Shown in pieces: positions 29,921-43,930 of a stretch of DNA of 64,000 bases. The DNA comes from Brachybacterium sacelli (GTDB taxonomy: Bacteria; Actinomycetota; Actinomycetes; Actinomycetales; Dermabacteraceae). Positions within the stretch are counted from its first letter, which is position 1. Each line of letters starts with the position of its first letter. A program made the translations under genes and the position numbers. The stretch is from the NCBI RefSeq assembly GCF_017876545.1, contig NZ_JAGIOD010000002.1:1116001-1180000 (forward strand), in the 5' to 3' direction. The notes beneath the pieces are model-generated. The model worked only from the letters and a program-made list of their open reading frames with translations. It was not told the origin of the DNA and did no database searches.

Positions 29921-30136
29921 ATGACCGCACGCCGCTCCGAGGACGCCGACCGCGATCGCAGCCGGGACGGCGCCGACGCGGCGGCCTACTGGACGCCGCA
30001 GCGGCGCCGGGAGGCGCGGCCGGCCCCGTGGGAGAAGGTGCCCTCGCCCGAACCGGAGCACGAGGAGCCGGAGCAGGGCGAGGCAGGCACCAGCGGTGAA
30101 GCTTCGCGGAAGGAGCGCTCGCCCCGATCGAAGTGA
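29921..30136 (+). CDS. Small hydrophilic protein of unknown function
   Basis: A 71-residue product, very rich in Arg, Glu, Asp, Pro and Ala, with no signal peptide or membrane segment. It appears intrinsically disordered; the only distinctive patch is AAYWTPQRRREARPAPWEKV. A good ribosome binding site (AGGAGG, 7 bases before the ATG) and its position 21 bases after the DUF6457 gene support it as a real last gene of the nar operon. Function unknown. Confidence 0.6.
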   Translation: MTARRSEDADRDRSRDGADAAAYWTPQRRREARPAPWEKVPSPEPEHEEPEQGEAGTSGEASRKERSPRSK

Positions 30137-30245: not shown

Positions 30246-31262
30246 GTGATCCCTTCCCCGGAATCCCAGGACGACCGCACACCCCTCCTCGGCCGCTGCG
30301 CCCGGACCGTCGGCGGCGTCGCCTTCGTGGCGGCGCTGACGCTCGGCGGAGCCGGTCTCGCCACCGCCGAGCCCGCCGATGACGGCGATCTCGAGAGAAC
30401 GACCCTGTCCTCCGGCGCACAGGAGGGCGCCGTCGAGTACTGGACGGCCGAGCGCATGGAATCGGCGACCCCGGCGGATGAGCTCATCGCCGACCAGGCG
30501 GCCCCGGACGGGCAGGTCGCCGCCTCCGCGACCGAGAGCATTCCTGCCGTCGGCGCCGACTCCGAGGTCCGGACCGCACAGCGCAGCGCCTCGGGAGCGG
30601 TCGACGCCGCTCAGCCCGCAGCGGGCACCGACCACATCGGCAAGGTCTTCTTCACCGTCGAAGGCGTCGACTACGTGTGCTCCGGCAATGCGGTGGCCTC
30701 CTCCAACGGCTCCACCGTCTCGACGGCAGGCCATTGCGTGCACGAGGCCGGCACCTGGGCGGACAACTGGGTCTTCGCCCCGGGCTACGCGCAGGGGTCG
30801 ACCCCGTACGGCCTGTGGGGCGCCTCGGACCTCTACGCCACCGACCAATGGGTCGCCACGGAGGACATGAACTACGACGTGGCCTTCGCGATCGTCGAGC
30901 CGGAGAGCGGTGCCGCGACCCTGACCGAGGCCGTGGGCGGGTCCGGCATCGAGTTCAACACCGAACGCGGAGCGCTCTACACCTCCTACGGCTACCCGGC
31001 GGGGGCCCCCTTCGACGGCGAGAGCCTCGAGCAGTGTCAGGGCCAGGGTGTCGATGACACCATCGGCGGCACGGATGACCAGGGAATCGACTGCGACATG
31101 ACCGGTGGCTCCTCGGGCGGCCCGTGGTTCGCGGGCGACGGCCCCTCCGGGATGCAGGTCTCGGTCAACAGCTTCGGCTACTCCTCGCAGCCGAACGTCA
31201 TGTACGGGCCGTACCTGGGTGACGTGGCGCAGGAGATCTACGAGGCCGCCGCGGCCGCCTGA
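30246..31262 (+). CDS. Secreted trypsin-like serine protease
   Basis: A 338-residue exported protein. An N-terminal signal region (RTVGGVAFVAALTLGGAGLA) ends near ATA-EP at about 41. A poorly conserved pro-region of about 85 residues follows, then a chymotrypsin-fold domain from about 130. The catalytic triad is visible: H163 in STAGHCVH, D211 in MNYDVAF, S290 in GGSSGGP. C145-C164 and C264-C283 are likely disulfides. It resembles V8/glutamyl endopeptidase-like secreted proteases of actinobacteria; specificity is not readable. It starts at GTG after GAAAGGA. The next gene encodes a tiny secreted protein with nearly the same signal sequence. Confidence 0.9.
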   Translation: MIPSPESQDDRTPLLGRCARTVGGVAFVAALTLGGAGLATAEPADDGDLERTTLSSGAQEGAVEYWTAERMESATPADELIADQAAPDGQVAASATESIPAVGADSEVRTAQRSASGAVDAAQPAAGTDHIGKVFFTVEGVDYVCSGNAVASSNGSTVSTAGHCVHEAGTWADNWVFAPGYAQGSTPYGLWGASDLYATDQWVATEDMNYDVAFAIVEPESGAATLTEAVGGSGIEFNTERGALYTSYGYPAGAPFDGESLEQCQGQGVDDTIGGTDDQGIDCDMTGGSSGGPWFAGDGPSGMQVSVNSFGYSSQPNVMYGPYLGDVAQEIYEAAAAA

Positions 31263-31338: not shown

Positions 31339-31344
31339 TATTCT
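31339..31344 (+). promoter_or_regulatory. -10 element of the hexad-repeat peptide gene
   Basis: TATTCT at 31339-31344 is a strong -10, giving a 5' UTR of about 45 bases before the ATG at 31395. No clear -35 was seen. It means the small gene is transcribed independently of the protease. Confidence 0.45.
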
Positions 31345-31394
31345 CGTCTCCGTTGGTGCTGGATCCGATACCAGGCCTGTGAAAGGTGCCGAAG

Positions 31395-31655
31395 ATGTCC
31401 CCTCTGAGTGTGACCACGTCCCCCCGTTCCTCCGTCCCGACCCGGCTGAGCCGTAGCGCACGCGTCCTCGGCGGCGCTGCTCTCGCTGCCGGCCTGACCT
31501 TCGGTGGGGCGGGCCTGGCCTCCGCGGTGGAGGTGAATCCGCAGTCGGCCTCGCAGCGCTTCGTCGAGGTCACCCCGCAGGTCGAGGTGAACCCGCAGGT
31601 CGAGGTGAACCCGCAGTCCACCGTGACACCCATGGTGGAGGTGAACCCGCAGTAA
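31395..31655 (+). CDS. Small secreted hexad-repeat protein (VEVNPQ repeats)
   Basis: An 86-residue precursor. Residues 1-44 are a signal peptide with a basic N-terminus (RLSRSARVLGG), a hydrophobic core and an ASA cleavage site at 42-44. The predicted mature part is exactly 42 residues, seven consecutive six-residue units: VEVNPQ, SASQRF, VEVTPQ, VEVNPQ, VEVNPQ, STVTPM, VEVNPQ. Units 4 and 5 are identical at the DNA level (31581-31598, 31599-31616). GAAAGG lies 8 bases upstream of the ATG; a GTG at 31386 is an alternative. Signal residues 22-44 match 15 of 23 positions of the protease signal upstream. No family was recognised; it may be a surface peptide, protease substrate or signal. Confidence 0.78.
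   Translation: MSPLSVTTSPRSSVPTRLSRSARVLGGAALAAGLTFGGAGLASAVEVNPQSASQRFVEVTPQVEVNPQVEVNPQSTVTPMVEVNPQ
31527..31652 (+). repeat. Seven 18-base coding units (VEVNPQ hexads)
   Basis: The mature part of the small secreted protein is built from 18-base units. Four encode VEVNPQ exactly and one encodes VEVTPQ; units 2 and 6 have diverged to SASQRF and STVTPM but keep the six-residue period. Confidence 0.85.
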
Positions 31656-31669
31656 CCGGCCCCAGCCGT

Positions 31670-34228
31670 TCAGCGATCCGCGAGGTCACCGACGTGAGTG
31701 ATGGCGAGCACCGGCTCGCCCGCCTCGTCGGTGGCCTCGAGGTCGAGTTCGGCCTCGATCGCCCAGTCGTGGTTGTCCTCGGGGTCGGCGAGCACCTGAC
31801 GGATCCGCCAGAGCTTCGATTCCTCCGTGATCTGCAGGAGCTGCGGTGAACGCGCCGGGCCGTCGATGCCCACGTCGTCGTAGGTGTCGTAGTAGCTGTC
31901 CATGGCCTCCGCCCACCGCGCACGGTCCCAGCCGGCGGCGCCGTCGAGCTCGGCGAGGCGCTGCTCGCGCTCGAAGGCGAAGTGCTCCACGCGCTGCCAC
32001 ATGGCAGCCCTCACCATGGTGCGCAGCACCTTGGTCTGTGCCGACAGGCCGCGGGGAGAGCTCGGGCGGATCTCGCTCGCCCCGTCGGCCTCCACGTCCT
32101 CAGGATGGGAGAGGGCCTCCCACTCGTCCAGCAGCGAGGAGTCGATGCCGCGCACCAGCACGCCGAGCCATTCGATGAGGTCCTCGAGCTCCTCGGTGCG
32201 CAGGTCCTGGGGGATGGTGCGCCGCAGGGCCTGATAGGCGTCGGAGAGGTAGCGCAGCACGACGCCCTCGGAGCGCTGGAGCCCGTAGCGCTGGACGAAC
32301 TCGCTGAAGGTCTGACCGGTCTCGTGGATCTCCCGGACCACCGACTTGGGGGAGAGGTCCTCGACCCTCACCCAGGGACGAGTGCGGGCGTAGATCTCCA
32401 ACGCGGCCTCGAGGTCCTCCTCGAGGGGCTTGGGCCAGGTGACCTCGTCGAGCTGGGCCATGCGCTCGGTGTACTCGACCCCGTCGGCCTTCAGCTCGGC
32501 CAGCAGCTCGCCCTTGGCGGCATTCTGCTGGGCGAGCAGGATCTGTCGCGGGTCCTCCAGGATCGCCTCGAGGATCGAGACGGTGTCCATCGTGAGGGTG
32601 GAGGATTCCTCGTCGAGCGTGTCGATCATGGCGATCGCGAAGGGGGCCAGCGGCTGGTTCATGGTGAAATCGAGCTGCAGGTCCGAGGTCAGGACGATGC
32701 GTCGGCCGAGATGGTCCGGCTCCGCCAGCACCTCGATGATCTCGGCGTCCCGCAGGCCCTTGAGGATCGCGAGGGCGTCCCGCAGGAGCTTCAGCTTCTG
32801 GGTACGAGTCTGGTGGCTGGTCATGATCAGGTGGCGGCCCGCGGCGACCGCGTCGCCGGGCCGCGAGATCAGGGCCAGCGCCATGCCGGCGGTGATCTTC
32901 AGATGGGGCCGCAGTGCCTCGGGGCCGTTCTCGACCAGCTTGGTCATGTTCGCCTCGGACCAGGTGACCGCGCCGTCGGGGATCCGGGGCTTGGGCTCCT
33001 TCTTGCGCTTCTTCGCATTGTTGGGGGCCGCGCCGGCTTCTTCGCGCGCCCGGTGCTTGGCCCGCTCGCGCTCGAACTCGATGGTCCACGTCGGCGCCTG
33101 CACCACGACGTGGCCGATGGTGTCGAAGCCCGCGCGGCCCGCGCGGCCCGCGATCTGGTGGAACTCGCGGGCGTTGAGCAGCCGCGACCGGGAACCGTCG
33201 AACTTGACCAGCCCCGTCAGCAGCACGGTGCGGATGGGCACGTTGATGCCCACCCCGAGGGTGTCGGTCCCGCAGATGATCCTCAGCAGACCGGACTGGG
33301 CCAGCTTCTCGACCAGGCGGCGGTACTTGGGGAGCATGCCGGCGTGATGGACGCCGATGCCCTCGCGCACGAGCCTGGACAGGATCTGCCCGAAGCCCTT
33401 GGAGAAGCGGAAGTCGCCGATGATCTCGCGGATCCGCTCCTTCTCCTCGCCGCTCAGGATCTTCTGACCCAGCAGCGCCTGAGCCTGCTCGAGGGCGTCC
33501 TTCTGGGTGAAGTGGACGATGTAGACCGGGGAGTCACGGTCCTGCAGGATCGTGGAGATGGTGTCCGGCAGCGGTTCGAGCGACCAGCGGAAGTCCAAGG
33601 GGACCGGGCGGGGTGCGTCGTCGATGACCGACACGTCGCGCGCGGTCCTCTCGGTGAGGTCCTCGACGAAGAAGGACACGTCACCGAGGGTCGCGCTCAT
33701 CAGCACGAACTGGCAGTCGGGCAGCTCGACGAGGGGGACCTGCCAGGCCCATCCGCGCTGGGGGTCGCCGTAGTAGTGGAACTCGTCCATCACCGCCAGG
33801 CCCACATCGGAGGCGGGCCCGTCGCGCAGCGCGTGGTTGGCGAGGATCTCCGCGGTGCACACGATGATCGGGGCATCGTGGTTCACGCTGGAGTCGCCGG
33901 TCATCATGCCCACGTTCTCGGCCCCGAACTGGCCGACCAGGTCGAAGAACTTCTCGGAGACCAGGGCCTTGATGGGCGCGGTGTAGTACGAGCGCTCCCC
34001 GCGGGCCATGGCGGCGAAGAGCGCGGCATAGGCGATCGTGGTCTTGCCGGAGCCGGTGGGGGTCGCCGCGATGACGTGGTCGCCGGCGGCGATCGCCAGT
34101 AGCGCTTCCTCCTGGTGCGGGTACAGCGCGCGCCCGACGGACTCCTGCGCCGCGACGAATCCTTCGACGATCGCGTCCTGTCCGTCAGCGGAAGCGGTCT
34201 CGGGCAGGAACGGCGTCAGGATCGGCAT
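31670..34228 (-). CDS. DEAD/DEAH-box (Ski2-like) RNA/DNA helicase with DUF3516-type C-terminus
   Basis: An 852-residue superfamily 2 helicase. Motifs in order: Walker A ATPTGSGKTT, TAPIKALVSEKFF (Ia), DEFHYYGDP (DEFH box), MSATLGD (III), GVGINVPIRTVLL (V), HQIAGRAGRAGFD (VI). A basic insert (NNAKKRKKEPKPR) follows the helicase core, and the C-terminal 350 residues fit the DUF3516 domain found with actinobacterial helicases. The start at 34228 is chosen because CAGACT lies 6 bases upstream, a leaderless arrangement; an upstream in-frame ATG exists at 34300. It probably acts in RNA turnover or genome maintenance. Confidence 0.88.
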   Translation of the reverse strand: MPILTPFLPETASADGQDAIVEGFVAAQESVGRALYPHQEEALLAIAAGDHVIAATPTGSGKTTIAYAALFAAMARGERSYYTAPIKALVSEKFFDLVGQFGAENVGMMTGDSSVNHDAPIIVCTAEILANHALRDGPASDVGLAVMDEFHYYGDPQRGWAWQVPLVELPDCQFVLMSATLGDVSFFVEDLTERTARDVSVIDDAPRPVPLDFRWSLEPLPDTISTILQDRDSPVYIVHFTQKDALEQAQALLGQKILSGEEKERIREIIGDFRFSKGFGQILSRLVREGIGVHHAGMLPKYRRLVEKLAQSGLLRIICGTDTLGVGINVPIRTVLLTGLVKFDGSRSRLLNAREFHQIAGRAGRAGFDTIGHVVVQAPTWTIEFERERAKHRAREEAGAAPNNAKKRKKEPKPRIPDGAVTWSEANMTKLVENGPEALRPHLKITAGMALALISRPGDAVAAGRHLIMTSHQTRTQKLKLLRDALAILKGLRDAEIIEVLAEPDHLGRRIVLTSDLQLDFTMNQPLAPFAIAMIDTLDEESSTLTMDTVSILEAILEDPRQILLAQQNAAKGELLAELKADGVEYTERMAQLDEVTWPKPLEEDLEAALEIYARTRPWVRVEDLSPKSVVREIHETGQTFSEFVQRYGLQRSEGVVLRYLSDAYQALRRTIPQDLRTEELEDLIEWLGVLVRGIDSSLLDEWEALSHPEDVEADGASEIRPSSPRGLSAQTKVLRTMVRAAMWQRVEHFAFEREQRLAELDGAAGWDRARWAEAMDSYYDTYDDVGIDGPARSPQLLQITEESKLWRIRQVLADPEDNHDWAIEAELDLEATDEAGEPVLAITHVGDLADR

Positions 34229-34682
34229 GGGTCCAGTCTGCCAGGGGGAGCCGACGCCCCGTGAGCGGACGCCGTCGGGCAGATGGGTAGTGCTCCCCAT
34301 CGCGAAGGTGCACTCTGCACCATAGGCTCATCCCGAGAACCAGCGGCACGGGCCGCAGGACGGGGGACTTGACATGGCTTTCCTGGGGGCGGACACCTCC
34401 TTCGACCTCGCGCTGCTCGAGCTGTGCGAGAGCGGATTCAGGGGCGAGGAACCCCCGACTTATCAGTGACCTGGCTGCCGAGAGCCGGGCGTCCTCGCGG
34501 GAGAAGCCCTCGGGTCTGCTTTCGCGGGCGACTACCCAGGGCAGGTCGAAGCCCGCGCCGTTCTCGGTGAGGGCGAGGATCTCCTCGTCCGTGATGCTGA
34601 GGAGAGCTTGAGGGTCCCCCTCGGAGTGGGGCGCCAGAGCGGCTGCCGCGGCGAGCTGCCGGGGAGGGGTGGCAGATTCCAT
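34185..34682 (-). CDS. Hypothetical protein, possibly truncated, overlapping the helicase start
   Basis: A 165-codon frame with a very good ribosome binding site (GGAGG, 5 bases before the ATG). Residues 1-95 look like real protein (LLSITDEEILALTENGAGFD, then LPWVVARESRPEGFSREDAR), but after about residue 97 the sequence becomes arginine- and proline-rich with no pattern, and the frame runs 44 bases into the helicase gene, across its predicted promoter. The gene may be the 5' part of a longer one that was cut or frameshifted near 34390. No family was recognised. It lies 42 bases downstream of the PH-domain-like membrane protein gene. Confidence 0.5.
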   Translation of the reverse strand: MESATPPRQLAAAAALAPHSEGDPQALLSITDEEILALTENGAGFDLPWVVARESRPEGFSREDARLSAARSLISRGFLAPESALAQLEQREVEGGVRPQESHVKSPVLRPVPLVLGMSLWCRVHLRDGEHYPSARRRPLTGRRLPLADWTHADPDAVPARDRFR

Positions 34683-43749: not shown

Positions 43750-43822
43750 GCCCCGTTCGTCTAGCGGCCCAGGACGTCGCCCTCTCACGGCGGTAACACC
43801 GGTTCAAATCCGGTACGGGGTA
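43750..43822 (+). tRNA. tRNA-Glu (anticodon CTC), copy 1
   Basis: A 73-base cloverleaf: acceptor GCCCCGT/ACGGGGT, anticodon stem TCGCC/GGCGG (one mismatch-tolerant pair) with loop CTCTCAC (anticodon CTC), T arm CCGGT/ACCGG-like with TTCAAAT. CCA is not encoded. It lies 34 bases after tRNA-Gln. Confidence 0.93.
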
Positions 43823-43850
43823 CGACGCAGGATCTCCGGATCGTGCGCAG

Positions 43851-43923
43851 GCCCCGTTCGTCTAGCGGCCTAGGACGTCGCCCTCTCACGGCGGTAACAC
43901 CGGTTCAAATCCGGTACGGGGTA
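43851..43923 (+). tRNA. tRNA-Glu (anticodon CTC), copy 2
   Basis: Identical to copy 1 except for one D-loop base (C to T in AGCGGCCYAGGA). It is 28 bases downstream, a tandem duplicate in the same transcript. Confidence 0.93.
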
Positions 43924-43930
43924 CGGAGCA

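Follow-up and report, generated by a model that had tools for sequence, protein, structure and literature searches.

What does a small exported protein do when most of its mature chain is one hexapeptide written several times over? The question is raised by a gene on the plus strand at 31395..31655 of the window, the stretch of 64,000 nucleotides of Brachybacterium sacelli DNA analysed here, to which all positions refer. Its open reading frame has both start and stop and encodes 86 amino acids, and homologues are present in relatives. The first-pass annotation described a signal peptide followed by 42 mature residues, and this is also what we see: a signal-peptide-like leader of 44 residues (31395..31526), judged by eye and ending ...GGAGLASA, and then 42 residues that would begin directly behind ASA. 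The mature chain comprises, all on the plus strand, a first unit VEVNPQ (31527..31544), a six-residue spacer SASQRF (31545..31562), the units VEVTPQ (31563..31580), VEVNPQ (31581..31598) and again VEVNPQ (31599..31616), a second six-residue spacer STVTPM (31617..31634) and a fifth unit VEVNPQ (31635..31652) flush with the stop codon. A VEVNPQ unit thus stands at both its start and its end. The earlier count of four VEVNPQ and one VEVTPQ is correct, as is the observation that two adjacent units, the third and the fourth, are identical in DNA. Five non-overlapping hexamers lie within one mismatch of the unit, whereas 20,000 shuffles of the residues never gave more than three. Tandem Repeats Finder reported nine arrays in the window, among which this one (score 99) is second to a duplicated tRNA-Glu stretch (347). 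The latter holds two tandem tRNA-Glu genes (ctc; 43750-43924) within a repeat whose unit is 101 bases long, with 96% matches, and a tRNA-Gln gene adjoins it.

The gene looks real. Its likely start is ATG 31395, as first annotated, because the GTG at 31386 given as the start in the ORF listing overlaps a ribosome-binding string, GAAAGG (31381..31386, plus strand). This string stands eight bases ahead of the ATG and is present in five of five aligned upstream regions, the window included, and the similar GAGAGG precedes the start in several other relatives. Further upstream, an alignment of five genomes shows a partly conserved block on the plus strand (31339..31362), a possible promoter region in which TATTCT (31339-31344) is retained in three genomes and GTGCTGG (31356-31362) in all five. 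A separate, putative promoter is plausible on these grounds. As for the -10 element previously assigned to the gene, a consensus scan found no sigma-70-like promoter.

The gene belongs to a family that is narrow in range. We found it in 19 of 38 Brachybacterium genomes, 17 in the first searches and two more (G058 and G059) beside the helicase gene described below; homologues with preserved units, whose absence was to have counted against the annotation, are therefore present in the genus. One profile of the family, A2, was built on 18 of the 19 members, omitting G016 as nearly identical to G014. A profile search of 47 genomes of the family Dermabacteraceae gave matches in 21 at E 1e-4. These were the 19 carriers plus G011 and G020, where the matches fall in other proteins (the protease discussed below and a 393-residue frame), and none of the nine genomes from other genera matched. 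In samples of 396 genomes of the order and 394 of the class, no further gene that combines a leader with an array was recognised at the loci that were read, in a search that scored only 13 candidates per genome and could miss distant relatives; order-wide occurrence, which the annotation had proposed to check, was not seen in the genomes sampled. The order search matched 17 genomes outside the genus, 14 with a readable locus and three with weak matches that gave none. Arrays occur in four of those 14 loci, each within a frame 523-530 residues long (a subtilase in three cases, a WYL protein in one), and in none of the six loci from the five genomes matched in the class search. The subtilase (L094, L095 and L098, also L132-L134), a Peptidase_S8 protein of another genus in the order, has four to five tandem (F/L)IETNP units before its catalytic domain, and a gene that by eye resembles a sigma factor lies upstream of it. 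Its unit is nearly the same as that of the Brachybacterium genome G027, a likeness that is probably convergent. The WYL-domain protein (L096:574-2163) has a VETNPE array beside other simple repeats and looks low-complexity. Array-only profile matches in G021, G018 contig 26 and G032 were rejected by eye as low-complexity stretches in unrelated frames without a leader.

Within the genus, the constant anchor of the locus is a DUF3516 DEAD-box helicase (31670..34300, minus strand), which is convergent with the peptide gene in all 19 loci and is the sole neighbour common to all of them. No functional link is implied. The helicase occurs in 37 of 38 genomes with or without the peptide gene, and the helicase-side regions of genomes without the gene contained an array in 0 of 18 cases. 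In a helicase tree of 37 of the 38 genomes (G001 had no helicase match), made with FastTree, midpoint-rooted and with some rows carrying untrimmed ends, all 19 carriers fall in one clade of 21 whose other two members, G020 and G021, do not have the gene. One gain and two losses of the peptide gene would be the simplest account of this distribution.

The annotation's statement that no described family has this repeat agrees with what we found. No Pfam or NCBIfam model matches the window protein, and literature searches, which covered mostly papers outside subscription, returned neither the string VEVNPQ nor, among the titles and abstracts listed, a description of the family; matches to IETNP came from picornavirus or 2A contexts and unrelated text. 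The best match of the peptide among solved structures had E 1.3. A viral origin was considered and set aside: IMG/VR matched two stretches, neither of which was confirmed, and PHROGs matches were weak, the best (E 1.3e-4, for L043) being of unknown function.

Across the family, the unit rather than the hexad phase is what persists. The 19 homologous genes hold 122 units of the pattern [VI][EQ]xNP[QWL], not counting a diverged IWGNPQ in G014 and G016. Position 1 is V in 93, I in 24 and another residue in five; position 2 is E in 107 and Q in 15; position 3 is V in 63, I in 35, T in 15, G in six and another residue in three; position 4 is N in 117 and position 5 P in all 122; and position 6 is Q in 95, W in 16, L in nine and another residue in two, the whole set being Q, W, L, M or R. 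E/Q at position 2 and P at position 5 were required by the search expression, so these two columns are conserved partly by construction, and a relaxed expression that fixed only them again gave 122 units. The 103 junctions between units hold 0 (49 junctions), 1 (25), 2 (5), 4 (3), 6 (18) or 7 (3) residues, and spacing varies even inside single genes. A common layout starts with the leader and a single unit; next comes a spacer of six residues, in many cases opening with K or R and closing with F (KSTLRF, KPSVQF, RSLRSF and AYSAKF in relatives), and the remaining units follow. In 18 of 19 genes the first unit directly adjoins the presumed cleavage site, and in 14 the last unit runs up to the stop codon. 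SASQRF and STVTPM had been taken for diverged units. SASQRF shares no position with VEVNPQ and STVTPM two of six, and random hexamers of the same composition match at 1.03 on average, with 27% matching at two or more; because family units follow one pattern with 0-7 residues between them, both are better called spacers. The description of the mature part as exactly seven hexads therefore stands for the six-residue phase of the window gene and fails as a family rule. On the sequences compared, the unit is evidently the constant of the family, and the seven-hexad phase describes the window gene alone.

Copy number ranges from 3 to 13 units over the 19 genes, and species whose helicases are 93.6-94.4% identical have nine, eight and five, in keeping with the earlier suggestion that the array can grow or shrink. 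Within genes, pS was 0.327 and pN 0.028; between genes, pS was 0.423 and pN 0.176. The share of difference that lies between genes was 0.84 for nonsynonymous change (bootstrap 0.77-0.89) and 0.23 for synonymous change (0.10-0.34), and all 200 bootstraps over genes gave the larger share to nonsynonymous change; a ten-gene subset spread over the tree gave 0.84 versus 0.30. Inside genes, silent sites differ about three quarters as much as they do between genes; not all copies are therefore fresh duplicates, although they spell the same peptide. From lineage to lineage, the spelling differs in all units at once (VEINPQ, VQINPQ, VEVNPW, IETNPL, IQGNPQ). The units are thus under purifying selection, and their spellings differ as a block between lineages. 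Uniformity is complete in G006 and G023 (five VEVNPW units each; pN 0, pS 0.60) and lower in G022 (pN 0.077), G002 (0.111) and G018 (0.127). The clearest case of block change is G022, which has Q at position 2 in nine of nine units; its sister G024, with a helicase 96.0% identical, has E in eight of eight, silent variation is present in both, and the rest of the G022 group (G004, G059 and G058) has E at this position throughout. G022 also holds two degraded units, EQISPQ and AQNKPQ.

What is new here is that amino-acid agreement within genes is far above silent-codon agreement and is accompanied by block change between lineages. In the survey by Persi and colleagues (PMC5120217), divergence among repeats was usually faster inside one protein than from one orthologue to another. 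Among the Brachybacterium repeats, agreement is much closer at the amino-acid level than at silent codons and also exceeds that between orthologues, so these arrays are well suited to testing whether selection keeps the copies of an array alike.

We read the repeat protein as the precursor of a short peptide, which would probably be a signal matched to a partner. In this explanation, which we favour tentatively and would place somewhat below an even chance, an exported precursor carries 3 to 13 copies of a hexapeptide that is itself the functional element. The leader would direct export through the Sec pathway and would be removed by signal peptidase between ASA and VEVNPQ; the mature chain would be an unfolded string of units; extracellular proteases would most likely cleave this string to short peptides the size of a unit; and these would act as a signal on a lineage-specific partner. 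The edge-to-edge layout, the irregular joints and selection at the level of the unit fit units that work one by one, and it is by analogy with duplicated pheromone propeptides of Bacillota that we propose proteolytic release and a signalling role. The residue ahead of a unit is variable (Q, W, L, F, R, K, A, H, S, Y or M), and no single cleavage motif is kept. Processing by a glutamyl endopeptidase, considered because there is one E per unit, was rejected, as G022 and G007 carry Q for E in all units. Against the signal reading, no receptor-like gene was seen at the loci, and a TPR receptor was not among the Pfam matches of 11 proteins of the window, one of them the peptide itself (the scans identified the protease, the helicase, nitrate reductase, a permease and an IclR regulator 13 kb away, among others); the absent adjacent receptor is the main gap in the argument. 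The lower uniformity of G022, G002 and G018 also counts against it, and much of the agreement among units could have arisen without lineage-matched partners, had each lineage duplicated a changed unit early and ordinary purifying selection then acted. A more specific version, which we regard as possible but doubtful, is a quorum-type signal of Actinobacteria with up to 13 units, whose array is respelled together for each signal type (VEVNPQ, VEINPQ, VQINPQ, VEVNPW, IETNPL or IQGNPQ) and whose receptor is encoded elsewhere. Should the units be released, the family would represent a multi-copy peptide signal from bacteria among which limited literature searches listed none, and its signal types would be readable, synthesisable and directly testable.

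A fairly unlikely alternative is that the chain stays whole and works as a multivalent binder or coat (an adhesin, a cell-wall coat or an assembling peptide), its identical units binding one repetitive surface or each other. The units would then be alike because all bind the same lattice, and uniform units, an export leader and a copy number that differs between close species, as in avidity arrays, speak for it. However, no wall anchor, lipobox or fold was seen in the family, the spacers are irregular, and some chains are as short as 28 and 32 residues, with four and three units (G018 and G033). The short beta strands with turns proposed earlier were not supported either. AlphaFold2 models, made from four sequences each, were of very low confidence (mean pLDDT 52.7 and 42.0 for the window protein and the 13-unit L038, respectively), with one helix in the leader and no strands; from so few sequences, they say only that no fold is predicted.

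It is improbable, in our judgement, that the uniformity arises from duplication and gene conversion under ordinary purifying selection, the lineage spellings being founder effects and no lineage-matched partner existing. Duplication has clearly occurred: adjacent identical units, two in the window and four in the middle of the G022 array, point to recent events, duplication evidently helped shape that array, and about 30% of repeat proteins are reported to be significantly homogenised, mostly by recent duplication (PMC5120217). But such a process should homogenise silent sites too, yet the between-gene shares of synonymous and nonsynonymous difference are far apart. In G022, moreover, the first, eighth and last units differ at silent sites from the identical middle four, though all have Q, and the last keeps a CCC codon that G004 and G058 also have in their last units.

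We consider it quite improbable that the peptide is a decoy substrate, inhibitor or chaperone-like propeptide of the neighbouring protease. This exported, trypsin-like serine protease (30246..31262, plus strand), a relative of AL20 (PDB 3wy8, 3cp7), lies directly upstream of the peptide gene in nine of 19 loci; a further five have it on the far side of the helicase, no more than 4 kb away (14 of 19). The leaders of the two proteins (30246-30400 and 31395-31526) are alike (E 4.6e-5) and possibly derive from a duplicated leader. Over the 38 genomes, however, a hand tally gave 14 with both genes, five with the peptide only, eight with the protease only and 11 with neither, G001 being counted as protease only on a partial hit in a 74% complete assembly. 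Because the five peptide-only genomes have no protease match at E 1e-10, the protease is not a required processor, and we regard it as a candidate rather than an obligate processing enzyme. In G023, the peptide frame has no start codon and the protease is split over two frames; the assembly is rated 85% complete, and the locus may be damaged or misread. Of the 19 loci, in the extent retrieved, 12 have a nitrate reductase cluster upstream, and between its genes and the protease the window has a highly charged 71-residue ORF (29921-30136) with relatives in two close genomes (L041 and L042).

Last, a left-handed beta-helix of hexapeptide repeats is very improbable: the units share a six-residue period and an aliphatic first residue with Hexapep (PF00132), and weak Pfam matches to three of 18 members (best E 7.4e-6) alone favour a regular structure, but the best score of 25.9 bits is below the curated cut-off of 27, the window protein is unmatched, the period is interrupted where 1, 2 or 4 residues are inserted, the chains of some members are very short, and the two low-confidence models contain no strands.

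How does the family compare with known systems? A sortase signal of the NPQTN type does not correspond, as no TN follows NPQ and there is no membrane tail. The AL20-type secreted serine proteases are clear relatives of the neighbouring gene rather than of the peptide, similar leaders aside. The viral 2A motif, given as (G/H)D(V/I)ExNPGP (PMC8623073), has the string [VI]ExNP in common with the unit; G follows NP in 0 of 122 bacterial units and G022 and G007 have Q for E, so translational skipping of the 2A type is unsupported; nor did the literature search list any paper on 2A with prokaryotic ribosomes. Fungal KEX2-processed repeat proteins, as described in PMC6339444, are likewise secreted proteins of near-identical repeats thought to release peptides. 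These are cut at dibasic KEX2 sites, whereas the units abut directly at 49 of 103 Brachybacterium junctions; KR is confined to spacers of G027 and G012, and RK or KK is found in those of G058 and G033.

The likeness on which our reading draws is to the RRNPPA pheromone propeptides of Bacillota, described as exported proteins of 50-120 residues that are cut by extracellular proteases (PMC11343458), with up to six pheromone copies reported in duplicated forms (PMC9765709). According to these accounts, the propeptides have a Sec leader and several identical or nearly identical peptides of 5-10 residues, one of them usually C-terminal. The Brachybacterium precursors, at 72-129 residues by the starts used, are similarly short, a leader is seen by eye in 19 of 19 genes, and the flush last unit matches the C-terminal copy. 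In RRNPPA systems the cleaved peptide is re-imported and binds its receptor, whose gene (TPR) is adjacent, with PrgX as an exception; because no such adjacent gene, a defining feature, was seen at the loci studied here, we do not file the gene under RRNPPA. The Brachybacterium precursors also differ in scale, with up to 13 copies and with units making up almost the entire mature chain.
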